Notes under the pieces: model-generated
Database searches by the model: none
Seen by the model: the letters and a program-made list of their open reading frames with translations, nothing else
What the model was told of the DNA's origin: nothing
Source of the DNA: a virus
DNA length: 20,308 bases
IMG/VR virus record: IMGVR_UViG_3300048778_000432
Location: 1 to 20,308 of that record
Strand: one strand, 5' to 3'
In this document: in pieces, positions 2,505 to 19,159 of the stretch
How the letters are laid out: each line of letters starts with the position of its first letter
Numbering within the stretch: the first letter of the stretch is position 1
Position numbers and translations under genes: made by a program

Positions 2505-2939
2505 ATGAGACCTAAAAAAGTTATTCTTTTATTGCTAGCCAATGAGCAGGAACTCTCGGCGACCAGTTACATGCTGGGCATCAACGGATATATCGCGCTT
2601 CAAGCCGCCAATGCTGCGGAGGCCGTCGCAATCTTCTCAAAAACAGCGATAAACCTCGTAATCGTCGATTTTGATATAACGCCGGTCGATGGCGATGCGC
2701 TGGTCAAGCAGCTTAAAAAGATTGCCAGTCACGTTCCTATGATACTGGTCGGCGATCTGGAGGCGATGAGCGGCAAGTTTCACCAGGCCGACGCACTCCT
2801 CCCTAAAAAGGGCGTATCCACTTTCGATCTGCTGGAGCGGATCAAGATCATGATCGCCCGCAGGCGTGGCCCGCGCAAGGGCATCTACCGTTGTGTCGAT
2901 GGCAAACTCACGTTGAAAAATCCCGAGGTGTCCGCATGA
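2505..2939 (+). CDS. Degenerate response-regulator receiver domain protein
   Basis: A 144-aa single-domain protein, close to the usual 120-130 aa receiver length, with AAGGAA just before ATG 2505. The beta1 strand VILLLLANEQEL (6-17) has Asn13-Glu14 where active receivers have the Asp-Asp metal-binding pair. Asp55 in NLVIVDFDITPVDGDAL is the expected phosphoacceptor. The Thr/Ser position after PMILV is Gly83. A Lys pair (101-102) in LLPKKG fits the conserved lysine. The C-terminal tail (RRRGPRKGIYRCVDGKLTL) is basic and carries no recognised output domain. The fold call is firm. Loss of one acidic residue and of the switch Thr suggests weak or phosphorylation-independent signalling (inference). 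It could be a phage anti-signalling or adaptor protein. It overlaps the next start by 4 bp. Confidence 0.8.
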   Translation: MRPKKVILLLLANEQELSATSYMLGINGYIALQAANAAEAVAIFSKTAINLVIVDFDITPVDGDALVKQLKKIASHVPMILVGDLEAMSGKFHQADALLPKKGVSTFDLLERIKIMIARRRGPRKGIYRCVDGKLTLKNPEVSA

Positions 2940-4075
2940 GTTCTCAAACCGGAATCGAATGGACGGACGCGACGTGGAACCCACTGCGGGGCTGCTCGCC
3001 GGTGTCGGCGGGATGCAAGAACTGCTATGCCTCGCGCGATGCGAAGCGCTTCTCAGGGCCGGACGCGCCGTTCGAAGGGTTGGTGCGCATCAACGCCGCC
3101 GGCGAGCGCACTGACGAGTGGAATGGCCAGGTGCACTTTATCGAAAAGCATCTGCTGGACCCGCTGAAGTGGAAGCCTATCAAGGAGCAGACCGAGCCTG
3201 AAGAAATGGCGGGGATTTTTCACACGCGCCCGCGCCGCATCTTCGTCAACTCGGTCAGCGACCTGTTTCATGAGAACGTGCCGGACGATTGGATCGACCG
3301 GATTTTTGCGGTGATGGCGCTTTGCCCGCAGCATATCTTCCAGGTGCTGACCAAGCGGCCCGAGCGGATGCTGCGGTGGTTCAAGAGCGGCCCTCGTCCA
3401 AGCACGATGACTTGCCCGCGCCGAAATCACATTTTGAATGTAACGGATTTTATGACGAGAGCAGGAGAGATCGCCGAAAAATATCGAGGCCTAGAAATTG
3501 CACTTGCAGCGCGATTGGTACACGGTGAGTGGAAATGGCCACTACCGAACGTCTGGCTGGGCGTGAGCGTAGAGAATCAGGCGGCGGCAGATGAACGGAT
3601 TCCGCTGCTGCTGCAAACACCGGCAGCGGTGCGGTTCGTGAGCTGTGAGCCGCTCTTGGGGCCGGTGCGCCTGGACCGCATTGGCGAGGAGCCAGAAGGC
3701 TATCTGAACGCCCTGGCCGCGGTGGTTCATTGCGATGGCCGGGGAACGAAGTCAATTACTGGCCTCGACTGGGTGATCTGCGGTGGCGAGAGCGGGCCTG
3801 GCGCGCGGCCCATGCACCCTGACTGGGCGCGCAATCTGCGCGATCAATGCAAGGCCGTGGGCGTGCCGTTCTTCTTCAAGCAGTGGGGCGAGTGGGCACC
3901 TTGTGAGAATGGGGAAGTTACGCCGAACCCGCAAGACTGGGATACACCGCCCCCTACTCACGAATTCCATGGCGATGATCGACCACGGTGCGCGCAAGAG
4001 GTTGTTTATCGCATCGGCAAGAAAGCTGCTGGCAGCTTGCTCGATGGCCGCGAATGGAAACAGTTTCCGGAGTAA
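2936..4075 (+). CDS. Phage Gp37/Gp68 family (DUF5131) radical-SAM-like protein
   Basis: A 379-aa protein. ATG 2936 is preferred because GAGGTG (2925-2930) precedes it and it overlaps the previous stop as ATGA; an in-frame start at 2891 lies deep inside the upstream gene. Residues 7-32 carry the family signature IEWTDATWNP followed by Cys20, Cys27 and Cys30 then YA, a C-x6-C-x2-C arrangement read as a probable Fe-S/radical SAM site. Further conserved blocks are VNSVSDLFHENVP, QVLTKRPERM, VWLGVSVENQ, VSCEPLLGPV, the ICGGESGPGARPMHPDW segment and FFFKQWGEW. The length fits the family (PF07505). Members occur in phages, prophages and bacterial defence-rich islands; the substrate is unknown. About 40 residues after the RPERMLRWF block (to roughly residue 200) look like a lineage-specific insert. 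Family assignment is high confidence, reaction unknown. Confidence 0.93.
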   Translation: MSSQTGIEWTDATWNPLRGCSPVSAGCKNCYASRDAKRFSGPDAPFEGLVRINAAGERTDEWNGQVHFIEKHLLDPLKWKPIKEQTEPEEMAGIFHTRPRRIFVNSVSDLFHENVPDDWIDRIFAVMALCPQHIFQVLTKRPERMLRWFKSGPRPSTMTCPRRNHILNVTDFMTRAGEIAEKYRGLEIALAARLVHGEWKWPLPNVWLGVSVENQAAADERIPLLLQTPAAVRFVSCEPLLGPVRLDRIGEEPEGYLNALAAVVHCDGRGTKSITGLDWVICGGESGPGARPMHPDWARNLRDQCKAVGVPFFFKQWGEWAPCENGEVTPNPQDWDTPPPTHEFHGDDRPRCAQEVVYRIGKKAAGSLLDGREWKQFPE

Positions 4076-4079
4076 ATTC

Positions 4080-4667
4080 ATGGTTGAAGCATACCCGCTC
4101 TACTGGCCGGAAGGGTGGAAAAGAACTCTTTCTTGGCAGCGCACTCACAGCCGGTTTAAAATTGGCTTTGCAACCTCACGCGATTTTCTGATAGCTGAGG
4201 TCAAGCGCCTGGGAGGTACGCAGATTATTCTCTCGACAAACGTGCGGTTGCGCGGTGATGGTTTGCCGTATGCCAGCGAGAGAGAACCTGAAGATGGCGG
4301 CGCTGCAGTCTACTTCACTTACAAAAAGAACCCGATGTGCTTTGCTTGTGATCGCTACAAAACCGTGAAAGAGAACCTGACCGCCATCGGCAAGACCATA
4401 GAGGCTTTACGTGGAATGGAGCGGTGGGGAGCCAGCGACATGATGGAAAGAGCTTTCCGTGGTTTCGCTCAACTTCCCGATAAAACCGGGCGGGACTGGT
4501 GGGATGTTCTTCAGGTGCGCCGCGATTCGTCCCGCGAAGTGATTGAAGCTAACTTCCGCAGGTTGGCTATCGATCGGCATCCAGACCATGGGGGAAGTAG
4601 TGACGCAATGTCCGAACTTAATCAAGCTCGCGCTCATGCACTCACTGAAATTTCAGGGCGTGCCTGA
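4080..4667 (+). CDS. Phage protein with C-terminal J-domain
   Basis: A 195-aa protein. ATG 4080 has GGAG at 4069-4072 and lies five bases after the previous stop; an upstream in-frame start at 3783 would sit inside the Gp37/Gp68 gene. The N-terminal part (1-135) matches a phage family I recall by YPLYWPEGWKRT, LSTNVRLRGDGLPY, AVYFTYKK and FACDRYKTVKENLTAIGKTI. The C-terminal part (139-195) is a J-domain: WWDVLQVRRDSS, helix II, then the diagnostic His-Pro-Asp at 167-169 (RHPDHGG) and helix III. J-domains stimulate host DnaK, so the protein probably recruits the Hsp70 machine to a phage process such as replication or assembly. The partner of the N-terminal half is unknown. It overlaps the next gene by 1 bp (TGATG). 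Confidence 0.88.
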   Translation: MVEAYPLYWPEGWKRTLSWQRTHSRFKIGFATSRDFLIAEVKRLGGTQIILSTNVRLRGDGLPYASEREPEDGGAAVYFTYKKNPMCFACDRYKTVKENLTAIGKTIEALRGMERWGASDMMERAFRGFAQLPDKTGRDWWDVLQVRRDSSREVIEANFRRLAIDRHPDHGGSSDAMSELNQARAHALTEISGRA

Positions 4668-4873: not shown

Positions 4874-5142
4874 CGCTGCAGATCGTCAACGGAGAGCCGG
4901 TCGACATGCCGCCAGGGGCGGTCATGGGTGCGGAGTTAATCTTTCCGCACCAGCGCAACCGTGCGGAGTTTCCGTATACCTATAACTGGCATCGCTTGGC
5001 CTGGACCGGCATTGACCGTAAAGGATGGCGCTGCCGGGTACTCTGCCGCGGAACTATGAACTCCTGTCTGCTTGAGTTTGAAGACGGCTTCCGCGTCGTC
5101 ACCAGCCGCAACGCACTCCGAAAGGTGAAACTGCTGATATGA
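4870..5142 (+). CDS. Small phage protein, SH3-like C-terminus
   Basis: A 90-aa protein starting at GTG 4870, which overlaps the previous stop as GTGA. Residues 51-88 (GWRCRVLCRGTMNSCLLEFE, then DGFRVVTSRNALRKV) have the alternating strand pattern and the closing V-x-x-R-x-A-L-R-x basic segment seen in small beta-barrel SH3/KOW-like phage proteins. The N-terminal half (VNGEPVDMPPGAVMGAELIF) is not recognised. It overlaps the helicase start by 4 bp, which suggests the two are made together. Its function is unknown; a nucleic-acid contact is plausible. Confidence 0.6.
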   Translation: MTLQIVNGEPVDMPPGAVMGAELIFPHQRNRAEFPYTYNWHRLAWTGIDRKGWRCRVLCRGTMNSCLLEFEDGFRVVTSRNALRKVKLLI

Positions 5143-6527
5143 GTTACGAAGATTTCCTACAGAGTAAGGCCCAATATATGAAAGATTCTGGGTTTGCAGC
5201 GGTATCTATGCCGTCTCAGATTTTTGATTTTCAGGCGGACCTGATTGAGCGATCTCTCCATAAGGGCCGTTCGGCTATCTTTGCCGACTGTGGGCTTGGC
5301 AAAACTCCAATGGAACTCACTTGGGCCGATAACGTTGTGCGGCATACAAACAAGAAGGTTCTTTATATCACGCCTCTCGGCGTAGCAAAGCAGACAATTC
5401 GCGAGTCTGAAAAGTTCGGCATTGAGGCGCACCGATCGAACGACGGGCAACTTGTTTCAGGAATCAACGTCACCAACTACGAGAAATTACACAGGTTCAA
5501 TCCAAACGACTTCGCTGGCGCGGTATGTGATGAATCCTCGTTCATCAAGGCGATGAACGGAAAGCGGCGCGCCCAGGTGACAGAGTTTTTGCGCACACTT
5601 CCATATCGGTTGTTAGCCACCGCTACGGCAGCGCCCAACGACTACATTGAACTCGGGACGTCTTCTGAAGCTCTCGGCGTCATGGGCCAGATTGACATGC
5701 TGAATAGGTTCTTTAAAAACGATCAAAACACCAGCGACACTCGCATGACGCTGCGGCGCGCACCATCTCAAGGTGGCCCTGTTAGTGCTGGGTGGCGGTT
5801 TAAAGGACACGCCGAGGAACCTTTCTGGAGGTGGGTGTGCTCCTGGGCACGTGCAGCGCGCAGGCCTTCTGACGTTGGGCTATATTCCGACCTGCGCTTT
5901 GTCTTGCCGCGATTGGTTGAACGTGAGCATATTGTCGAGACGCGTAACCTGGCTTCGGGGATGCTTTTCCCGTTGGCGGCTACCAATATGCGAGAGGAAC
6001 GCGAGGAGCGCCGCCGGACCGTACAAGAGCGCTGCGAGATGGCCTCTTCTTTGGTCGGCAGCACAGGAAAACCGTTTGTCATATGGTGCCAACTCAACCC
6101 AGAAGGAGATCTACTCGAACATTTGGTTTCGGACGCAGTTCAAGTATCAGGGTCGGATAGCGATGAGGAAAAAGAAGAGAAGTACGAGGCATTTTCCAGC
6201 GGCCAAGCGCGCGGAATTATCACAAAGCAAGTCATCGGCGGCTGGGGTCTCAACTGGCAACATTGCGCTCATGTGGTCGAGTTTGCAACTCATAGTTTCG
6301 AGCAACACTATCAAGGCGTTCGCCGGTGCTGGAGATTTGGTCAGACGCAGCCCGTCGTCAACGACCTGATTGCCACGGAAGGCCAGCGTGGGATCAAAGA
6401 AAATCTGCGCCGGAAACAGGTCGCCGCCGATAAGATGTTCGACGAATTAGTCCGACACATGAACGAGTCTATCCGCATTGAAGGCGGATATAAATTTGAG
6501 AAAGAGGTCGCCACGCCATGCTGGTAA
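5139..6527 (+). CDS. SF2 (SNF2-like) DNA helicase/translocase
   Basis: A 462-aa protein with AAAGGTG 11 bases before ATG 5139. The two RecA-like lobes are visible. Lobe 1 has the Q-motif-like FDFQADLIERSL (29-40), Walker A CGLGKT (51-56), motif Ia YITPL, Walker B CDESS (130-134) and motif III LLATATAAP (158-166). Lobe 2 has the FVIWCQLNPEG strand, motif V QVIGGWGLNW (364-373) and motif VI QGVRRCWRFGQ (392-402). The motif VI form and compact size (no nuclease or DNA-binding add-on) match helicases found in many phages next to methyltransferases. It should couple ATP hydrolysis to movement on DNA. Its last 10 bases overlap the methyltransferase start, so the pair is probably one functional unit in replication, DNA modification or restriction evasion. 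Confidence 0.9.
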   Translation: MSYEDFLQSKAQYMKDSGFAAVSMPSQIFDFQADLIERSLHKGRSAIFADCGLGKTPMELTWADNVVRHTNKKVLYITPLGVAKQTIRESEKFGIEAHRSNDGQLVSGINVTNYEKLHRFNPNDFAGAVCDESSFIKAMNGKRRAQVTEFLRTLPYRLLATATAAPNDYIELGTSSEALGVMGQIDMLNRFFKNDQNTSDTRMTLRRAPSQGGPVSAGWRFKGHAEEPFWRWVCSWARAARRPSDVGLYSDLRFVLPRLVEREHIVETRNLASGMLFPLAATNMREEREERRRTVQERCEMASSLVGSTGKPFVIWCQLNPEGDLLEHLVSDAVQVSGSDSDEEKEEKYEAFSSGQARGIITKQVIGGWGLNWQHCAHVVEFATHSFEQHYQGVRRCWRFGQTQPVVNDLIATEGQRGIKENLRRKQVAADKMFDELVRHMNESIRIEGGYKFEKEVATPCW

Positions 6528-7555
6528 TCGATCAGAAAATCACAGACAAGTACGCAATCTATAACGGTGATTCGGTTGAGATGCTCACCGCTCTAAAAGA
6601 CCAATCGATTCACTTTTCCGTGTACTCGCCACCCTTCGCCACAGAGAGCGGGGGCGCTCTTTACCACTACAGTTCGTCTGACCGCGACTTGTCAAACTCG
6701 CGCACTTATAAGGAGTTTTTCGACCACTACGAATTCATCGTGAAAAGCCTTCACCGGGTCACATTGCCAGGGCGCATGACAGCCGTGCATTGTATGGATG
6801 TGCCGAACAGCAACAGCGGAAACGGCGATTCCTACACTGACTTTCCGGGCGACATTATTCGCCTCCATGAACGTTGCGGATGGCACATGGCATCCCCGCG
6901 CATCACAATTTGGAAAGAACCACTTGCGGTCCGCAACCGCACCATGACAAAAGCGTTGGCACACAAGTCAATTGTAGAGGATTCGTGCAACTGTGCCGTA
7001 GCTGGCGCTGACTATTTGCTGATTTTTCGACGGTCGGGAACGAATGAAATTCCAGTGACGCACCAGCATGGCCTTATGAGCTACGCCGGCGCTCGCAAAA
7101 TTCCAAAAGAGCTTTTGAAATATAAGGGATGGACCGGCAACCAGATTGAAAACCGCTATTCGCATTGGATTTGGCGGCAGTACGCGTCGTCGGTGTGGGA
7201 TGATATTCGCGGTAACCTTGGAGATCGAAAAGAACGAGGCGTACTTCCTTACCGTGAAGCTCGCGAGGAAGAGGACGAAAAACACCTTCATCCCCTCCAG
7301 CTAGATGTCATCACTCGCGCCGTTGAGTTATGGTCCAACCCGACAGAAACTGTATTGACTCCATTTATGGGGGTCGGCAGCGAAGTTTGCGCGGCACTGA
7401 TGAGCGGGCGCCGCGGCATCGGATGCGAACTCAAACCAAGTTACTACCGTCAGGCCGTCAAAAATATCGACGGCGTTCTCCAGAATGGATGGCATGACGA
7501 CAGCGGGCAAGAGTTGATGTCCTTTAGTGATGAGGCTATCGAGGCATCCGAATAA
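6518..7555 (+). CDS. DNA methyltransferase, beta-class (N6-adenine or N4-cytosine)
   Basis: A 345-aa protein. ATG 6518 overlaps the helicase by 10 bp. Motif order is catalytic first, cofactor last: NGDSVEMLTAL (16-26) precedes motif IV SPPF (37-40). Near the C-terminus are HLHPLQLDVITRAVELW (257-273), the motif I loop TPFMGVGSEVCAA (281-293) and RRGIGCELKPSYY (298-310). This order defines the beta class of amino-methyltransferases. SPPF does not by itself separate N4-cytosine from N6-adenine activity. The middle (about 60-250) is the likely target-recognition part. No cognate restriction endonuclease is visible nearby, so this is probably a phage modification enzyme that shields viral DNA or marks it for other steps, acting with the helicase. 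The specificity is unknown. Confidence 0.93.
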   Translation: MLVIDQKITDKYAIYNGDSVEMLTALKDQSIHFSVYSPPFATESGGALYHYSSSDRDLSNSRTYKEFFDHYEFIVKSLHRVTLPGRMTAVHCMDVPNSNSGNGDSYTDFPGDIIRLHERCGWHMASPRITIWKEPLAVRNRTMTKALAHKSIVEDSCNCAVAGADYLLIFRRSGTNEIPVTHQHGLMSYAGARKIPKELLKYKGWTGNQIENRYSHWIWRQYASSVWDDIRGNLGDRKERGVLPYREAREEEDEKHLHPLQLDVITRAVELWSNPTETVLTPFMGVGSEVCAALMSGRRGIGCELKPSYYRQAVKNIDGVLQNGWHDDSGQELMSFSDEAIEASE

Positions 7556-8202: not shown

Positions 8203-9869
8203 CCTTTCCGCAGCGGCAGCCCCTTCGCCTGGGCCTGCGCCTTCTTCCTCAACTTTGCCATCTCCATCAGGCTGCGCCGCGCCAGCGCCGTGGCATCCGC
8301 CCCGGCCAGCCGCATCTTCTCGAGCGACTCCTGCAGCCTCATCAGGTCCGGCTTCACACTCTCCAGCACCCATGTGTTGTAGGCGTAGCTCAGCATGTCG
8401 TAGAGATCGTCCAGTTCGTCGCCATGGATCTTCTTCACCGCGTGCCGCTCGTCAATCACGCGCGTGGTGATCGAGTTGAACGTCTTCCGCATCGCCGACG
8501 TCAATACGATATGGAAGCTGCTCAGGCCGGTGTAGAGCACCTGGGCATTGTCGGCGGGGCTCTTGTGCGCGTAGATGCAGGTCACGCCATACTCTGCAAA
8601 CACTTCCGCCATCTGCTCAAAGTTGCTCTTGCCCACGTCGTGGTGCTGGTCCATGGCGCTGTCCATGCAGCAGAACAGGAACCTCGGCTTCTGCTCGCCC
8701 ATCTTCGGCTTCACCCATAGTTCGCAGACCTTTTTTGCAAAGTCCACCGCTCCCATCTTGCGCTCCACCAGTTCGCCGGTACCGAACACGCGCCCGTTGT
8801 CGTCCACGCTGAACCGGCCTGCCGCCGCTGCCGAGCTGCCGTAGCCGTAGTCGATGCACAGGAAGTGATTCCACCACCACTCGTCCTGGATGGTCTGGTA
8901 GGGAATCATCCACTCCGGCCGCATAAAGCCGTAGTAGAGGCTCTCGGCGTTGCACCAGCACCCATGCAGCAGTTGCATCTGGATCTCGGCCGTCTGCGAC
9001 AGCAACTTGTTGACCTTGTCTTCGCCGTAGAGCGGGTTGTCGGTCACCGCGGCCGGGAAGAAGGCTGTCGTCATGTGCACCAGTTCGGCGCGCGAGGGCG
9101 GCCACTTCCAACTCGCGCCGCAATAGACGCGCCCCGGCCACACTGAACTGTTGATGTTGTTGTCCAGTTCCGTCGCCGGAAAGTGCAGTGGGCACTTGTT
9201 GCGCAGAAAAACCGACATCTGCCAGCCATGGCCCACACCGCCGGGGTTCGATGTCAGCCGCATCCGGCCGCGCAGCCGCGGGTCGGTCGGAGCCAGCCAG
9301 GGAACGATAGAACGCACTCGCCGTTCCGGCTGCAACCCGCTTTCGTCAATCCCGATCCAACTGCGCGGGTTGCCGCGGTAGCGGCCCAGGTCCTTATCCT
9401 GAGCCAGGTAGCCAAACCGGATGCGCGCGCCGCCCTTGGTCCGCACCGCCTTGCGCGTCACCTCGTCGAAGACGGGAAACTCCCACTGGCCTCCGCCTGA
9501 GCGCTGCTTATAGACGGCGCCCACCGACAAACAAAGTTTCTCCAGCCGGTCGGCAATCTGGTCCATCTCGCCCAGGCTCTCGCGCAGCAGCAGCCCGCGA
9601 AAGGTAGGGATATGGTATTCCTGCACCGCATCGCCCACCAGAAAGTCTGTTTTGCCGCCGCCCGATTGGCCGCCGAACAGCAGCATCTCCGCCAGCGAGC
9701 TCAGCGCCGCCTGCTGCGCCGGATTGATCGGCCACCAGCACGGATCAACGCCCGGAGGCGGGGGCACCCAGGCTGGGAAGTTGTGAGGGATGGAAAGGTT
9801 GGCGGGCTCAATCAGCATTGACGGCGCCGGCGGCGCCCACGCCAGCGTGGGAATGTGCGCCGTGATCAT
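8193..9869 (-). CDS. terL: Large terminase subunit (TerL)
   Basis: A 558-aa protein, typical for TerL. The start at 9869 overlaps the upstream stop by 4 bp. The N-terminal ATPase has Walker A FGGQSGGGKT (65-74), Walker B IGIDES (172-177) and the coupling motif LTSNPG (205-210). The C-terminal RNase-H-like nuclease has acidic residues Asp340 (CIDYGYG), Asp403 (CMDSAMD) and the GDELDD cluster (483-488). It cuts concatemeric phage DNA and pumps it into the prohead with the portal and TerS. The last residues (LRKGSR) are basic, and the stop codon falls inside a period-7 repeat tract. It is the distal gene of the minus-strand block, as in T7-like late operons. Both enzyme centres look intact. Confidence 0.96.
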   Translation of the reverse strand: MITAHIPTLAWAPPAPSMLIEPANLSIPHNFPAWVPPPPGVDPCWWPINPAQQAALSSLAEMLLFGGQSGGGKTDFLVGDAVQEYHIPTFRGLLLRESLGEMDQIADRLEKLCLSVGAVYKQRSGGGQWEFPVFDEVTRKAVRTKGGARIRFGYLAQDKDLGRYRGNPRSWIGIDESGLQPERRVRSIVPWLAPTDPRLRGRMRLTSNPGGVGHGWQMSVFLRNKCPLHFPATELDNNINSSVWPGRVYCGASWKWPPSRAELVHMTTAFFPAAVTDNPLYGEDKVNKLLSQTAEIQMQLLHGCWCNAESLYYGFMRPEWMIPYQTIQDEWWWNHFLCIDYGYGSSAAAAGRFSVDDNGRVFGTGELVERKMGAVDFAKKVCELWVKPKMGEQKPRFLFCCMDSAMDQHHDVGKSNFEQMAEVFAEYGVTCIYAHKSPADNAQVLYTGLSSFHIVLTSAMRKTFNSITTRVIDERHAVKKIHGDELDDLYDMLSYAYNTWVLESVKPDLMRLQESLEKMRLAGADATALARRSLMEMAKLRKKAQAQAKGLPLRKGSR

Positions 9870-10543
9870 GGCTCGTCCGCCACGGAGGCCGAGCAGTTCT
9901 CAGTTCTCAGTTCGCAGTTCTCAGTTAACCGCACCGACAGCAAACTTCTGAATTGCCGCGCGGCATTCAAAAGCGGCAGGGTTTTGGCGTACATCGTCGC
10001 CGAGGTTCCATCGAAGCTATGCGCGCCGGCCTCTTCACACATCCGAATGCGCCGCGCCGAATTAACCCGCCCAACATGGTAATGCCGGGCGTAGCGCGCC
10101 GCAAACTCGCCCCACGAAAACATCGTCTTGAGCTTCCATTCGGTACTGCCGCCTAAAAACAACCCTAAGTGCCGGTTTTCAGTCAAAACCTGGCCGATGA
10201 TCTTTTCGGTCATGCCGTCCTGCAAAGGTAACAGCAACTTTGGATATCCCTTCAACCGTTGCAGCCAACTCAACGAGAAATCGAGGCTCTTCAGACCTCC
10301 GGCAACGATATCCGGGATCACAACAAAATCCGCAGTACTTCCGCCTTTTTCGAGGACACGCTCAAACCCATCTGCGTCGAAATCTACTCTCTGAATGAAA
10401 GCCTTCCACGCGCCGTTATCTACACCATGTTGCAACCCGTCACGCGGTGTTGCATTGTCCGGCGTCAGCAGGATACCCCAACCAGTCTCGCGCAGCGCCT
10501 GTAGGTTACGCCTGGTCCCCGTGTTGGAGGCATAGCCCTTCAT
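9866..10543 (-). CDS. tRNA-guanine-transglycosylase-like / DpdA-like protein
   Basis: A 225-aa protein with start 10543 overlapping the TerS stop by 4 bp. The order of motifs parallels bacterial Tgt: VDNGAWKAF (Asp42) for DSGGFQ, VIPDIV (Asp78), LPLQDG (Gln108) for the Gln-Gly motif, LFLGGS (131-133) for the GG loop, HVGRVNS (156-162), then HSFDGT with Asp178 where Tgt has its nucleophile in FDCV. I recall phage proteins with the same H-x-G-R-V-N-S and S-x-D-G-T blocks annotated as queuine tRNA-ribosyltransferase-like. DpdA enzymes insert 7-deazaguanines into DNA, so phage DNA base exchange is the leading idea; tRNA is an alternative. It is shorter than Tgt (about 370 aa) and lacks its Cys-zinc C-terminus. 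Residues 206-217 are encoded by a period-7 repeat, an apparent tail extension. No preQ0 synthesis gene is visible here. Confidence 0.72.
   Translation of the reverse strand: MKGYASNTGTRRNLQALRETGWGILLTPDNATPRDGLQHGVDNGAWKAFIQRVDFDADGFERVLEKGGSTADFVVIPDIVAGGLKSLDFSLSWLQRLKGYPKLLLPLQDGMTEKIIGQVLTENRHLGLFLGGSTEWKLKTMFSWGEFAARYARHYHVGRVNSARRIRMCEEAGAHSFDGTSATMYAKTLPLLNAARQFRSLLSVRLTENCELRTENCSASVADEP
9894..9928. repeat. Period-7 repeat tract (CAGTTCT)
   Basis: Five heptamers: CAGTTCT, CAGTTCT, CAGTTCG, CAGTTCT, CAGTTAA. It lies inside the 3' end of the DpdA-like gene and is translated as the tail LTENCELRTENC. Confidence 0.95.
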
Positions 10544-11295
10544 CCAATCTGCAACTTTCCCGCCTTGCGCGCAGGAGTTGGATCTGCGGTAAATTTCGCT
10601 ATTGGCTGGTTTGTCAGTTTACGGACTCGCTGGCGTATGGTCTCGTCGTCTGCTCGATCGGCTGGCGCGCTGGATGGTTGCGCTGGAATAGAAACTGGAA
10701 TATTTTGTGCACGATTTTGCAAAGTCTCGTTCGCTGGGATAATCGGAGCGGGCTCCTGCGCGGGAGGCTGAGAAGCCAGCGGCGAGCGCGGTTGCCCGTC
10801 AATCCCCTGACCACTGACCACTGATCCCTGTTCACTGTCTTTCGGCACAATCGGCGAAGCCGGCACGCCCACGGGAATGAATGCCTGGTAGAAAGGCGCG
10901 GTGTTCGCCGCGATCCCGTTGCCCGCGGGCTCCAGAAGCTTGGTCGCTCCGGCTTGGATGCGGCCCGTCACAATATAGCCGAGCTGGATAGCTTCCTTCT
11001 TGAGCGTTCCCTTTTCCTCGCGAATCACCTTGATCAGCTCACCGTCCAGAAATGCGTTCGTCAGGTTCTCAACCTCAACCTGCTGCCGAGCGCGCTCCTG
11101 ACGCACCACATCGTCCTGCCGCTCAATCTCTTCCTGCACCTGAATCAGGTTGAAGGTCCGCACGGCCGCGTTCTTGGGGATACCGGCCTTCGCTGCGGCC
11201 TTATAGATGTCCTTGATTCTGCGGTAGGCCGCGACAAACTTCTCCTGTTCGCGCGTCAGCGGTGCTTCTTCATGTTGTGGGCCTTTCCTTGGCAT
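10540..11295 (-). CDS. terS: Small terminase subunit (TerS)
   Basis: A 251-aa protein with GGGAAGG upstream of ATG 11295. Residues 13-60 (LTREQEKFVAAYRRIKDIYK then AAAKAGIPKNAAVRTFNLIQ) match the helix-turn-helix start of Terminase_2-type small subunits: L-T-x-x-Q-x-x-F, a helical A-A-x-x-A-G block and a following paired helix. Residues 60-125 are helical and charged, probably the oligomerisation part. From about 130 the protein becomes Pro/Gln/Ser-rich, partly encoded by a period-7 repeat (about 152-166), before a basic C-terminus. TerS binds the packaging site and feeds DNA to TerL. Position next to TerL, separated only by the DpdA-like gene with 4-bp overlaps on both sides, supports the call. 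The long disordered linker is unusual and looks repeat-expanded. Confidence 0.82.
   Translation of the reverse strand: MPRKGPQHEEAPLTREQEKFVAAYRRIKDIYKAAAKAGIPKNAAVRTFNLIQVQEEIERQDDVVRQERARQQVEVENLTNAFLDGELIKVIREEKGTLKKEAIQLGYIVTGRIQAGATKLLEPAGNGIAANTAPFYQAFIPVGVPASPIVPKDSEQGSVVSGQGIDGQPRSPLASQPPAQEPAPIIPANETLQNRAQNIPVSIPAQPSSAPADRADDETIRQRVRKLTNQPIAKFTADPTPARKAGKLQIG
10806..10840. repeat. Period-7 repeat tract (ACTGACC)
   Basis: Five heptamers: CCTGACC, ACTGACC, ACTGATC, CCTGTTC, ACTGTCT. It is in frame in the TerS linker and encodes DSEQGSVVSGQG. Confidence 0.9.
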
Positions 11296-11315
11296 TGCCG
11301 GGCCTTCCCGTGAGA

Positions 11316-11346
11316 CAGTTCGCAGTTCACAGTCCTCAGTCGTCAG
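11316..11346. repeat. Period-7 repeat tract (CAGTTCG/CAGTCGT)
   Basis: Four heptamers and a half: CAGTTCG, CAGTTCA, CAGTCCT, CAGTCGT, CAG. It occupies most of the space between TerS and the 57-aa gene and contains that gene's stop codon (11336-11338). Confidence 0.85.
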
Positions 11347-12004: not shown

Positions 12005-13774
12005 CTACCTGCCCTTCTCAGACTGCCTGTGCGCATCGCCGGCCGCGTGCAGCGCCTTGGCGCCGCCTACGATCCGGCCCGTATTCTCTTCCACCTGCAC
12101 AGCACGGTCATCCAACAGTTTAACCATTTTTGAGTCTTTTGTATTGGTTACCGGCAGTGCCTTACCCAAAAACTGCTCCGTCCAGGCCTCAATCGCCGCC
12201 TTAGCCTCGCCTTTCGGGTCGTGCGAGATCCGCGCACTCAAAATGCGCACGTCGCGTCCCTCGGCAATCCACTTCTTCACCGTGTTCAGCGCGCTGTCGG
12301 GCGAGTCCACGCCCACCGGCGCGCCAATCTTGTCCAGGCCTTCGAATCCGTGATACTCGGCCAGCGTTCCATCCAGGTCACAGCCGTACCAGCCGCTCTC
12401 CGGGTCCACGGGCGGCGCCGTCACCAGTGTCATCTCTTCCGGTCGAACGTTCTGGATAATCTTGTTGTCGGCCCCGCGAACCCGCGCTCGCGCGGGCTGC
12501 CCGTTGGTCGGATTGAAATACTTCACCACGCCCGCGCGGCCATCCTTCAACCGCACTACGGCGCCGGTCTTTATTTCTTTCGTTTTGCCGCTGCTTCCTT
12601 GAACCGCGTTCGCACCGCTTCCCTGCTGTCGCTGTGCTTCGGCATATCCATCCCCTTGCTGGCTGAGTTCCACTCCTCCACGTCCACTCCCTGCTTTTCC
12701 ATCTCCTTCTTGTGGATATTGAAGTACGCCGCCTGCGCCTGGCTTTTGTACGGCATCGCTATTCTCCTTCGGTTTGGATGAGGAGGCTGTTATAGCCTCC
12801 CCACCCTGCTCTGGGATGTTCGCCTGCGTATTGCCAAACTTGTACTTCGTCTCACCTACAGGCGCTTTCGTCTCGTTTTGCCGACTCGCTAACTTGCTAA
12901 CTTGCTGACTTGCTGCTTTAAACTGGTCCCGCGTCGCCGCTTTATGCATGGCTGTGATCTCAGCACCCAGCCGTGCAGCCTCCGCCTTATCTCCCCGCGC
13001 TTCCGCCTTCTTCTGTTTTTCATACAGCGGTTCCGTTTGTTTCAGCGCGTCCACCTGGTCCTTGCCGCCCACCTGCAACTCTGAGACCTGGTTTGCCGCA
13101 TCCTTGCCGCCGGTGCGGATCGAGTACTGGTCCATATCCAGACCGTTGGACGTGATCTTGCTTTTATTCTCTACCGGCAGCTTCTTTTCGATGTGATCCC
13201 GCAGCTTCTCCAATGCCGAGCGCGAGTTCGCAGAGAGCCGGGCGCCCAGGTTGTCGATGTTGGTTTCCGCCGGCTTGCCGCGTTCGGCCTTCGTCTCCTG
13301 GCTGGCGTCCTTCTTTACGCGCACGCCCTCAACCTTTGCCCCCGGCACCGCCGCCGTCACCGCGGCAACCATCGCCTGCAGCACCGGCTCCTGTTCCTTT
13401 GCCGATGCTCGAATTTCACCTGCGTCGTTCGATCCCTGCACTACCGGACGATCTGAGCTTTCAGCTTCTACTGACGGCTGACGGCTGACGGCTGACGGCT
13501 GCTTTTCCGGCTTGTGCGCCTCATCCCGCCGCACGATCGGCAGCCCCGTCTCCTCGTCGATCCCAGTCACCTTCCCCGCCGGATGAGTGATGAGTTTTTG
13601 TGTTCCAGCTGAAAGCTGACGGCTAGAAGCTGAAGACTGTTTTACCGGCCTCAGCATCGCGCCGCTGGGCAATCCGCGCACAGCGCCCATGGGGCGCATC
13701 AGCGCACCGGGCGGCAAGCCTTTCGGCGTCGCTGCCCATTCCGCGTTACCGAGTTCCGCTAAAGTTGTAGCCAT
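12005..13774 (-). CDS. Long linker protein with C-terminal HAD phosphatase domain
   Basis: A 589-aa ORF with only a weak AAGAAAA-type RBS. Residues 460-575 are a HAD-like hydrolase: CDLDGTLAEY (Asp466, Asp468), ILSARIS (Ser513), Lys549 and LLDDRAVQ (Asp555-Asp556). This matches a stand-alone phage HAD family of about 150 aa that begins with G-W-x-G-x-D-L-D-G-T. Residues 402-451 (TGAVVRLKDGRAGVVKYF then the EEMTLV strand) look like a KOW/SH3-like barrel. The N-terminal 330 residues are polar, with a charged helical stretch (241-290), and include repeat-encoded QPSAVSRQPSV and SSASSRQLSAG. Residues 340-401 are Gln/Gly-rich and read across another gene in a different frame. It may be a fusion of once-separate genes. 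The substrate is unknown; polynucleotide 3'-phosphatase or nucleotidase activity is possible. Confidence 0.7.
   Translation of the reverse strand: MATTLAELGNAEWAATPKGLPPGALMRPMGAVRGLPSGAMLRPVKQSSASSRQLSAGTQKLITHPAGKVTGIDEETGLPIVRRDEAHKPEKQPSAVSRQPSVEAESSDRPVVQGSNDAGEIRASAKEQEPVLQAMVAAVTAAVPGAKVEGVRVKKDASQETKAERGKPAETNIDNLGARLSANSRSALEKLRDHIEKKLPVENKSKITSNGLDMDQYSIRTGGKDAANQVSELQVGGKDQVDALKQTEPLYEKQKKAEARGDKAEAARLGAEITAMHKAATRDQFKAASQQVSKLASRQNETKAPVGETKYKFGNTQANIPEQGGEAITASSSKPKENSDAVQKPGAGGVLQYPQEGDGKAGSGRGGVELSQQGDGYAEAQRQQGSGANAVQGSSGKTKEIKTGAVVRLKDGRAGVVKYFNPTNGQPARARVRGADNKIIQNVRPEEMTLVTAPPVDPESGWYGCDLDGTLAEYHGFEGLDKIGAPVGVDSPDSALNTVKKWIAEGRDVRILSARISHDPKGEAKAAIEAWTEQFLGKALPVTNTKDSKMVKLLDDRAVQVEENTGRIVGGAKALHAAGDAHRQSEKGR
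12571..12756 (-). CDS. Nested 61-aa phage protein (MPYKS family)
   Basis: It is read in a different frame from the 589-aa ORF that covers it. GGAG lies 8 bases before ATG 12756 (AAGGAGAATAGCG). The product begins MPYKSQAQAAYFNIHKKEME and continues with KQGVDVEEWNSASKGMDMP, which I recognise from many short phage proteins starting M-P-Y-K-S-x-x-Q with V-D-V-x-E-W and A-S-K-G; their function is unknown to me. Third codon positions in this frame are mostly G or C, whereas the covering frame here is A-rich at third positions and gives low-complexity Gln/Gly sequence. I take this as a true gene. The C-terminus is basic (RFKEAAAKRKK). Confidence 0.78.
   Translation of the reverse strand: MPYKSQAQAAYFNIHKKEMEKQGVDVEEWNSASKGMDMPKHSDSREAVRTRFKEAAAKRKK
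12883..12914. repeat. Period-8 repeat tract (AACTTGCT)
   Basis: Four octamers: GACTCGCT, AACTTGCT, AACTTGCT, GACTTGCT. It is inside the 589-aa ORF (around residues 287-297) and resembles the period-7 tracts but with unit length 8. Confidence 0.85.
13471..13501. repeat. Period-7 repeat tract (CTGACGG)
   Basis: Four identical CTGACGG heptamers plus CTG. In the 589-aa ORF it encodes QPSAVSRQPSV (about 92-102). It is the most regular of the tracts. Confidence 0.97.
13608..13639. repeat. Period-7 repeat tract (GCTGAAA/GCTAGAA)
   Basis: Four heptamers and a half: GCTGAAA, GCTGACG, GCTAGAA, GCTGAAG, ACTG. It encodes SSASSRQLSA in the 589-aa ORF. Confidence 0.85.
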
Positions 13775-17153: not shown

Positions 17154-19159
17154 TATTGTGCCTTCGGATGCTGGTTAAACCATCCATCTCCGCCCGCTGC
17201 CGGCGCACCCGATACCCCACCACCAGATGCTGCGCCTGCGCCGCCCATGATGGTCGAGAGAGGACTGACAGCCCCTGGGGGCATAGCGCTTTCCCATTGC
17301 TGCTGATAGCTGGCTAGTTTTCCTTGCAGCAAGCCGCGAAATTCCTGGATATTGGCCCTCAGGTTAGCCGGTGCAGCGTTCCTGTTTAGCAACTTGCTCA
17401 TGTGATCGAATTCCTCTTTGGTGATCACGCCACCCTTGTAGGCCTTCGATACTTCATTTGAAACTGCCGTCGCATCGGCGTCGTAGGCGGCAAGTTGCCG
17501 GCCTCGCTGCGAGCCGGAAGGCGTCAAGGCATTTTCAGCGGCATTCACCGTCGAGAAATACGTGTTATCTGGAATGTGCTGCTCCAGCCGGTTCAGATGT
17601 TGCAGCGCGGTGTTAAAGCTGTTGATTGCCTGCCCGGTTGTGCCGGAAGTGAAAGCCCGGCGCGTCGCGGCATAGGTTGGAAATTGTGCGGCGTCGTATC
17701 CGGGATAGGCACGATTCACCGCCTGTAAAATAGCCTGCGCCTGCGGGCTTCGACTGCTGGCCGTTGGTGGCGCCTCACGGCCTTCGCCGATCGCGCGCAC
17801 TACCCCGGCCATATTCGGATTGAGAGTCTTCAAAAACTCTTCGCCCGTCGTGCTTCCCGGCATCGCCGGCGCTGCACCGCCCATGCCAACATTCACGTTC
17901 ATCGGCCGCTCGTAGTGCACGCCCAGGTCCATCACCTTATTACCCTTGTCGTCGAGCATGTAGGTGTGCGGCTTATTATCTGGTCCCATGATCGGCTGCG
18001 ACTCTTTCAGTTGCACCTTCGGCCCCACCGGCTGTCCGTTGGCCATCACGGGCTGCGCTTCACCGGTTTGCCGGTTAATCATCATTGGGCCGGCGGCAGT
18101 TTCATGGAACTCCAGATTCCCGGCGCCCTGCTGTGTTTTCATCAGGTCATTGGCTGTTTTGGCCGCATCGTTATAACTGGTAGACACATCCCTTAGCGTT
18201 CCCGTCAATCCCTTCCGCCGGTCGGTCTGGTCCTTGAACTCCTGCAGCGTCGCCGCCCGCTGCGCCTGGTCGGTCGCCAGCGTGTTTTGCCGCGTCGCTT
18301 CCGTCGCATGGTAGGCCCGATCCGGCGCGCCATAAGCTGTACCCCCGGCAATATCCTGGGGCTCGATCGCACCCACCACCGCGCCTGGAATGCCGCCGGT
18401 CAGCAAGCCCACCACGCCGCCGCGCAGCCCGCGCAGAATTCTCGTGCCCACTCCAGGCTCATAACCGGCCTGCTTGGCCGATTCGGCTATCTTTCCCGTC
18501 TTGGGGTCATAGTAGGGCGTCGTTGCCGATTCGCCGGAAATTTTGGTGTCAATACCTGAAGTATCCGGGGCCGAGGCGTTTTGGAGTTCCGTCGCCACAT
18601 CGCTGGCCTGCTTTCCGGCAGCCAGGGCGCCGCGCACGCCTTCAAGGCCCAACGAAAGTGTTTCCGGCACATCCTGCGCCGGGCTGCTCGCCGTTCCCGT
18701 CGGGCTTACCTGCGAGCTGCTCTGCCCCGTCGTCTGGGACGGCTTGGGCATGGCCACCGGCGCGGCAGCAGCTTGCGTCGGTTGCGGTGTTTGCCCAGGC
18801 CTGGGCGGTTGTGCGCTGGCAGTACTCTGCGCCGCCAGCGCCATCGCTGGCCGTTGCATCGACGCGTTGGGCATCGGCGTCATTGCTCGAGGTCCCGGCG
18901 CGGCATTCGCGGTGTCGAGCGCGGCCATCACTGGCCCCTGATCCCTGACCCCTGCCGGGGTTCCCGACGGCTGATTTGTGGCCGGTGGGGTGGCTGATCC
19001 CTGGCTGTACGGCGACCCGAGTTTGCCCATCACCTCGGCGCGCAGTGCCGGGCTTGCCCGCACCTCGTCCGGGTCGTAGCCCATGCTCTGCAACACATTC
19101 CCCGCGCGGCTCAGGCCGCCCAGCTCGTCAGGATCGGCCCAATCGTTACCGTTCGACAT
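17153..19159 (-). CDS. Internal virion protein-like, middle-sized
   Basis: A 668-aa protein with GGAGG seven bases before ATG 19159; the start overlaps the upstream gene by 14 bp. Residues 1-50 are a short helical domain (DELGGLSRAGNVLQSMGYDP). Residues 50-165 are a Pro/Ala/Gln/Ser-rich linker, partly encoded by a period-7 repeat. A hydrophobic Gly-rich stretch lies at about 240-265 (LRGGVVGLLTGGIPGAVVGA). Residues 430-630 contain a helical domain I recall from podovirus internal virion proteins: a FNTALQHLNRLEQ helix, TFSTVNAAEN-type turn, TAVSNEVSKAYKG, and a FDHMSKLLNRN / FRGLLQGKL pair. By position and size it parallels T7 gp15, a protein ejected into the periplasm. The C-terminus is Gly-rich. 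No enzyme motif is visible. Confidence 0.65.
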   Translation of the reverse strand: MSNGNDWADPDELGGLSRAGNVLQSMGYDPDEVRASPALRAEVMGKLGSPYSQGSATPPATNQPSGTPAGVRDQGPVMAALDTANAAPGPRAMTPMPNASMQRPAMALAAQSTASAQPPRPGQTPQPTQAAAAPVAMPKPSQTTGQSSSQVSPTGTASSPAQDVPETLSLGLEGVRGALAAGKQASDVATELQNASAPDTSGIDTKISGESATTPYYDPKTGKIAESAKQAGYEPGVGTRILRGLRGGVVGLLTGGIPGAVVGAIEPQDIAGGTAYGAPDRAYHATEATRQNTLATDQAQRAATLQEFKDQTDRRKGLTGTLRDVSTSYNDAAKTANDLMKTQQGAGNLEFHETAAGPMMINRQTGEAQPVMANGQPVGPKVQLKESQPIMGPDNKPHTYMLDDKGNKVMDLGVHYERPMNVNVGMGGAAPAMPGSTTGEEFLKTLNPNMAGVVRAIGEGREAPPTASSRSPQAQAILQAVNRAYPGYDAAQFPTYAATRRAFTSGTTGQAINSFNTALQHLNRLEQHIPDNTYFSTVNAAENALTPSGSQRGRQLAAYDADATAVSNEVSKAYKGGVITKEEFDHMSKLLNRNAAPANLRANIQEFRGLLQGKLASYQQQWESAMPPGAVSPLSTIMGGAGAASGGGVSGAPAAGGDGWFNQHPKAQ
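18931..18958. repeat. Period-7 repeat tract (CTGATCC/CTGACCC)
   Basis: Heptamers CTGGCCC, CTGATCC, CTGACCC, CTGCCGG. A two-unit echo (CTGATCC CTGGCTG) follows near 18993-19006. It lies in the N-terminal linker of the 668-aa gene and encodes GVRDQGPV. Confidence 0.75.

Follow-up and report, generated by a model that had tools for sequence, protein, structure and literature searches.

The stretch of viral DNA analyzed here, referred to as the window, is IMG/VR record IMGVR_UViG_3300048778_000432, which comprises 20,308 bases and may be a fragment. On its minus strand, an open reading frame (ORF) for a small-terminase-like (TerS-like) protein is followed by an ORF for a protein that resembles tRNA-guanine transglycosylase (TGT) and then by terL, the gene for the large terminase subunit, with an ATGA stop/start overlap at each junction (Table 1). 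A preliminary description, which was made from the letters of the window alone, had claimed this gene order with 4-bp overlaps, and both overlaps were indeed exactly 4 bp. The small-terminase label is putative; it is based on a sub-threshold Pfam match and on synteny with terL in relatives. Heptamer repeat DNA encodes part of the TGT-like protein's C-terminal tail, so the enzyme proper comprises about 200 residues. The G+C content of the TGT-like gene (0.556) was inside the range of the neighboring genes and was uninformative on its origin.

Table 1. Positions of the genes, overlaps, landmark codons, and repeat at the terminase locus
Feature	Position	Strand	Basis or remark
Compact TGT/DpdA-like base-exchange enzyme (predicted), 225 residues, phrog_15826, barrel in residues 1-200	9866..10543	-	ORF; phrog_15826 E=5.2e-42; AlphaFold2 pLDDT 93.1; Tgt profile E=5e-6
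Small-terminase-like ORF, 251 residues	10540..11295	-	Terminase_2 E=0.011 (below cut-off); L102 homologue 65% identical, in the same place before terL
Terminase large subunit, 558 residues	8193..9869	-	phrog_979 E=2.1e-21; homologues 47-99%
4-bp stop/start overlap, terS-like/tgt-like (ATGA)	10540..10543	-
4-bp stop/start overlap, tgt-like/terL (ATGA)	9866..9869	-
Asp42 codon (DNGAW)	10418..10420	-	Opposite E. coli Tgt Asp89
Asp78 codon (IPDIV)	10310..10312	-	Opposite E. coli Tgt Asp143
Gln108 codon (LPLQDG)	10220..10222	-	Opposite E. coli Tgt Gln187
Gly131-Gly132 codons	10148..10153	-	Opposite GG of Tgt VGGLAVGE
Asp178 codon (SFDGT)	10010..10012	-	Opposite E. coli Tgt Asp264, nucleophile position
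Heptamer tandem repeat CAGTTCT x4.7	9894..9926	not assigned	Encodes part of the TGT-like C-terminal tail

Fold and family of the TGT-like protein

The preliminary description had read the protein as a base-exchange enzyme of the Tgt/DpdA type, and it had named Asp42, Gln108, Gly131-Gly132, and Asp178 as the substrate and catalytic landmarks. All of these residues were found at the positions given for them, and all were invariant in an alignment of 63 sequences in which the relatives were 28-64% identical to the window protein. Asp78, an invariant Lys137, and an invariant His156 had been overlooked. The complete set of invariant residues was D42, N43, P77, D78, Q108, G131, G132, K137, H156, S176, and D178, and the landmark order of the Tgt/DpdA superfamily (D..D..Q..GG..D) was present in the family.

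The AlphaFold2 model of the TGT-like protein was an eight-stranded triosephosphate isomerase (TIM) barrel with a predicted local distance difference test (pLDDT) score of 93.1 and a predicted template modeling (pTM) score of 0.87. According to the DSSP secondary structure assignment, the barrel strands carry the landmarks at their C-terminal ends, which form the catalytic face of TIM barrels. When the model was compared with viral protein models using Foldseek, the top match was a family member and the next was an unnamed phage protein. The nearest named matches were queuine tRNA-ribosyltransferases, namely that of SBRV1 (E 6.1e-7, template modeling score 0.62) and then those of Arthrobacter phage Mufasa8 and Microbacterium phage Megan. 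Further matches included the tRNA guanine transglycosylase of Achromobacter phage Motura, and protein R9TGF0 of Vibrio phage nt-1, a phage with DpdA2. Sequence searches of the PDB with the window protein gave chance matches only, and the model of the phage 9g DpdA was poor (pLDDT 45.7).

In profile alignments with hhalign, the family matched a profile built from E. coli Tgt and eight other Tgt sequences with a probability of 86%, an E value of 5e-6, and a score of 48.9, and D42, D78, Q108, GG131-132, and D178 were paired with D89, D143, Q187, GG213-214, and D264 of E. coli Tgt. The match to a set of phage DpdA proteins had E values of 5.8e-5 to 8.7e-5. The controls all gave E values of at least 0.05: the reversed Tgt profile gave 0.69, and unrelated QueC, QueD, QueE, FolE, and PAPS profiles gave 0.056-0.66. 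The scores of 40 column shuffles did not exceed about 20, compared to 48.9 for the native alignment.

Although every landmark of bacterial Tgt (PF01702) had a counterpart in the compact protein, the C-terminal third of Tgt was missing. The DpdA of Enterobacteria phage 9g has the same order of landmarks (DSGAF, LD, H, GG, HGFGIT, CDSSS), but it is 317 residues long, compared to about 200 in the compact family, and has His141 where the family has a Tgt-like Gln108. On the other hand, His156, which is invariant in the compact family, aligned opposite His196 of the 9g protein. DpdA2 has no histidine at 9g position 196 (PMC6884629).

The TGT-like protein was assigned to phrog_15826, whose actinophage members (Aoka gp40, Sonali gp81, and GreaseLightnin gp55) were about 30% identical to it and were annotated as 'DpdA-like tRNA-guanine transglycosylase'. 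Erythrobacter phage proteins R6L gp10 and ZS04_101 were 47% identical. These actinophage and Erythrobacter phage proteins shared the family, size, and invariant residues of the window protein; their genes were not located between terS and terL and had DNA-metabolism, que, or unknown genes as neighbors. The closest named relatives were encoded by pND6-1 and large Pseudomonas plasmids; they were 52-54% identical over about 195 residues, were annotated just as hypothetical proteins, and had no packaging or que genes nearby in the stretches read. A single-sequence scan of viral contigs recovered no relatives, and an alignment query was needed. With that query, 455 stretches encoding relatives were found in viral contigs and 19 loci with relatives were found in genome contigs; the locus counts given below cover 80 of the 455 viral stretches. 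A marine virus protein of 499 residues (BFVD A0A0F7L9Z1) carries the TGT-like domain (42% identity) fused to about 290 further residues.

Linkage to que genes and position beside terL

Evidence of another kind came from neighboring genes. Using profiles seeded from genes of 9g, SHIN8, and Sonali, we found 40 genes for QueC, QueD, QueE, or FolE, distributed over 30 of the 80 viral loci, and all of them were co-directional with the TGT-like gene. Thirty-six were within 600 bp and 28 were within 100 bp of the TGT-like gene, with an expectation of 1.1 for random placement within the same loci. A queC, queD, or queE gene adjoined the TGT-like gene in 29 of the 80 loci, often as the only one of the three, and a Pfam/NCBIfam scan of 35 adjacent genes confirmed 16 as QueC, 12 as QueD, and 7 as QueE. 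Locus L089, where the que genes lay 4 kb away together with a full DpdA, was the only one so arranged. The que-linked members were scattered over the family tree; strongly supported branches alone required at least seven changes, out of 18 needed overall. This repeated linkage is evidence for a 7-deazaguanine-related role that is independent of the similarity to Tgt, and together with the profile match, the viral fold matches, and the invariant landmarks it supports the TGT/DpdA-like reading.

Some loci showed further recurrent neighbors. A four-gene block encoding the TGT-like protein, QueC, a ParB-profile protein, and a PAPS-reductase-like protein was conserved in L023, L024, and L063. A local ParB profile was discarded, as it had drifted into DNA methylases. 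PAPS-reductase-like genes were also found near the TGT-like gene in ReqiPine5, R6L, L022, L039, and a Burkholderia plasmid.

The window protein itself belongs to an 11-row clade (support, 99) with L013-L022, in which no que genes were near the TGT-like gene. The preliminary description had proposed looking for precursor genes elsewhere in the genome. None were present in the available sequence of the window, whose record may be a fragment, and QueC, QueD, and QueE were absent from the whole records of the ten other clade members (8.6 to 73 kb), while positive-control records were recovered. Because the clade has no que genes, its enzyme must be assumed to use a host precursor. In a published classification, phages with DpdA but without precursor genes are the largest group, and use of host preQ0 has been proposed for them (PMC6884629).

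The position of the gene was examined in records encoding relatives of the window TerL, namely L103 (99%), L102 (83%), L104 and L105 (62%), L107 (60%), L106 (49%), and L108 (47%). The TGT-like gene was not found in any of these records. Specifically, no such gene was located between terS and terL in L102, L104, L105, L106, or L107, and L103 is a fragment that stops short of the site. The terS and terL genes overlapped directly in L104 (by 4 bp) and L105, and the gap between them in L107 contained heptamer-like repeats. L102, the nearest relative that reaches the site, had an empty site: the sequence at the terS end, GGCGGGAAAGTTGCAGATTGGATGA, was identical to that of the window and was followed by 58 bp of unrelated DNA up to terL. 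Among viral contigs, this junction string occurred only in the record of L102, and the terS-junction searches yielded one further short match, elsewhere, to the TerS-like protein. These sequence comparisons are most simply read as accessory insertion of the TGT-like gene, in the lineage of the window, at a permissive site between terS and terL.

Thus, the coupling to packaging that the preliminary description had proposed was not supported as a conserved feature, although the arrangement was not confined to the window. In a distant clade consisting of L070, L071, and L073, whose proteins were 34-36% identical to the window protein, the gene was located directly before an unrelated TerL gene (2 bp apart in L071), and L073 kept this arrangement at 67% protein identity. 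In L017, the TGT-like gene followed a head-closure protein gene. The immediate neighbors of the relatives were mostly unknown, and the named ones included methylases, HNH nucleases, and primases. Placement in a packaging or head module has thus arisen more than once, but the few terminase neighbors among some 50 lineages are probably no more than an accessory gene placed at random would show. A functional coupling to packaging is possible.

Proposed activity and alternatives

In our judgment, the product of the ORF is probably a compact base-exchange enzyme without zinc, a member of the Tgt/DpdA superfamily that would swap guanine for a 7-deazaguanine in a polynucleotide; the phage's own DNA is the most likely target. 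The activity, the DNA substrate, the identity of the base, the protection, and the timing described here are what we infer from the comparisons above. In the reaction of Tgt, an aspartate nucleophile attacks C1', a covalent intermediate is formed, and an aspartate serves as acid/base. By analogy, the nucleophile would be Asp178, attacking C1' of the target nucleotide with release of guanine, and the covalent Asp178 intermediate would be held until an incoming 7-deazaguanine displaced it. Asp42 would be the general acid/base, and Asp78, Gln108, and Gly131-132 would recognize the base. The precursor would be host preQ0 or a related base. Because the exchange would be performed on the finished polymer, it could act between replication and packaging, and the DNA so modified would be protected from restriction. 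As an accessory gene inserted between terS and terL, the TGT-like gene would presumably be expressed with the late packaging genes.

Several results weigh against this assignment. No Pfam or NCBIfam family matched the protein above the cut-off, and PF01702 had no match in the window record, compared to matches in 14 of 14 control genomes. The protein is about half the size of Tgt, and its cysteines are only at positions 169, 210, and 217, so that it has no CxCxxC zinc site; a length of 225 residues and the lack of this site were already part of the preliminary description. A Foldseek search of the PDB returned generic TIM barrels (best E 5.4e-4) with no Tgt among the 50 matches listed. The absence of que genes from the clade of the window, as noted above, also belongs here. 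Finally, the compact protein is encoded alongside a full-length DpdA in the genomes of Sonali, Vibrio phage R29Z, and L089, and given this coexistence it may do something else.

We consider it unlikely that the protein is a compact Tgt acting on the tRNA of host or phage, where it would install a queuosine precursor at the wobble position and so tune translation, with the que genes supplying the precursor. The family does align better with the tRNA enzyme than with the small DpdA set, and it has been proposed that phages with que genes but without DpdA boost queuosine in the host (PMC6884629). However, DNA is preferred over tRNA as the substrate because the zinc site and the whole C-terminal part of Tgt are missing, because a DpdA-type histidine is present at position 156, where E. 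coli Tgt has leucine, and because eight of the nine host genomes carrying relatives already have a Tgt of their own. Phages and plasmids carry the gene, at times with DNA methylases close by, which also fits DNA protection better. Equally improbable, in our view, is a role as partner or specificity subunit, or as a TGT-fold enzyme acting on another base or nucleoside, rather than as a stand-alone 7-deazaguanine exchanger. The catalytic positions are all invariant, unlike those of a noncatalytic subunit, and most loci have no second TGT (L089 alone among the 80 has one), which must be set against the compact size of the protein, its coexistence with full-length DpdA, and the frequent presence of only one of queC, queD, and queE beside its gene.

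The 4-bp overlaps on both flanks and the gene placement in L070, L071, and L073 are what might be expected if the position between terS and terL were functional, with the enzyme acting exclusively on DNA awaiting packaging or marking the packaging substrate. We regard this as very unlikely. The gene is missing from records whose TerL proteins are 49-83% identical to that of the window, including the empty site of L102 and the direct overlaps in L104 and L105; many relatives adjoin que genes and others adjoin methylases, HNH nucleases, or primases; and the few terminase neighbors seem to match random placement.

A broader proposal can be made only tentatively, and we think it doubtful. The family would be a further class of compact DNA 7-deazaguanine transglycosylases, separate from DpdA and DpdA2 and common to phages and large plasmids. 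It could work with a host precursor and a single que gene or, in genomes with a full DpdA, could add a second kind of base or a second site. It would shield mobile DNA from restriction and, in at least two lineages, would be part of a packaging operon for modification immediately before packaging. The function of DpdA is published (PMC6884629), and GenBank annotations already link the actinophage proteins to DpdA. Within the literature searched, the following appear to be new: the family of compact zinc-less proteins taken together, the one-gene que operons, the spread to plasmids, the terS-terL insertion, and the coexistence with full DpdA (Sonali, R29Z, and L089). If the base-exchange reading is right, mobile DNA is modified with 7-deazaguanines more widely than the known DpdA counts suggest; those counts would understate it because the family escapes Pfam, NCBIfam, and PF01702 and mostly bears the annotation 'hypothetical'. 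Plasmids might then carry a base modification that evades restriction, and a minimal zinc-less exchange enzyme of about 200 residues would be useful for asking how transglycosylases pick DNA over tRNA.

Other features of the window and related loci

In the genomes of L005, L009, and L089, the gene for a compact TGT-like protein was within a few kilobases of one for a full-length DpdA. Heptamer tandem repeats (CAGTTCT, CTGACCA, CTGACGG, and similar) were dispersed over the window at 9894-9926, 10807-10824, 11315-11333, 13471-13501, and 18931-18954. Several of the arrays were inside reading frames, including those of the TerS-like protein and the TGT-like tail, and similar arrays were found in L104, L105, and L107.

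On the plus strand, an overlapping pair of genes at 5139-6527 and 6518-7555 encodes a helicase (phrog_62, E 3.9e-43) and an N6/N4 DNA methylase (PF01555). The TGT-like gene had homologues of this pair nearby in L027, L045, and L048 and also, as a single ORF, in L035. A DUF5131 protein (PF07505, E 5e-96) is encoded at 2891-4075 (plus strand), and a DnaJ-domain protein (phrog_9210) is encoded at 3783-4667 (plus strand) by a longest ORF that overlaps the DUF5131 ORF by about 290 bases in a different frame. In Erythrobacter phages ZS04 and R6L, the gene adjoining the TGT-like gene encodes a homologue of the DnaJ-domain protein. Positions 1-185, at the left end of the record, contain a 60-bp tandem repeat in three copies with 97% matches.

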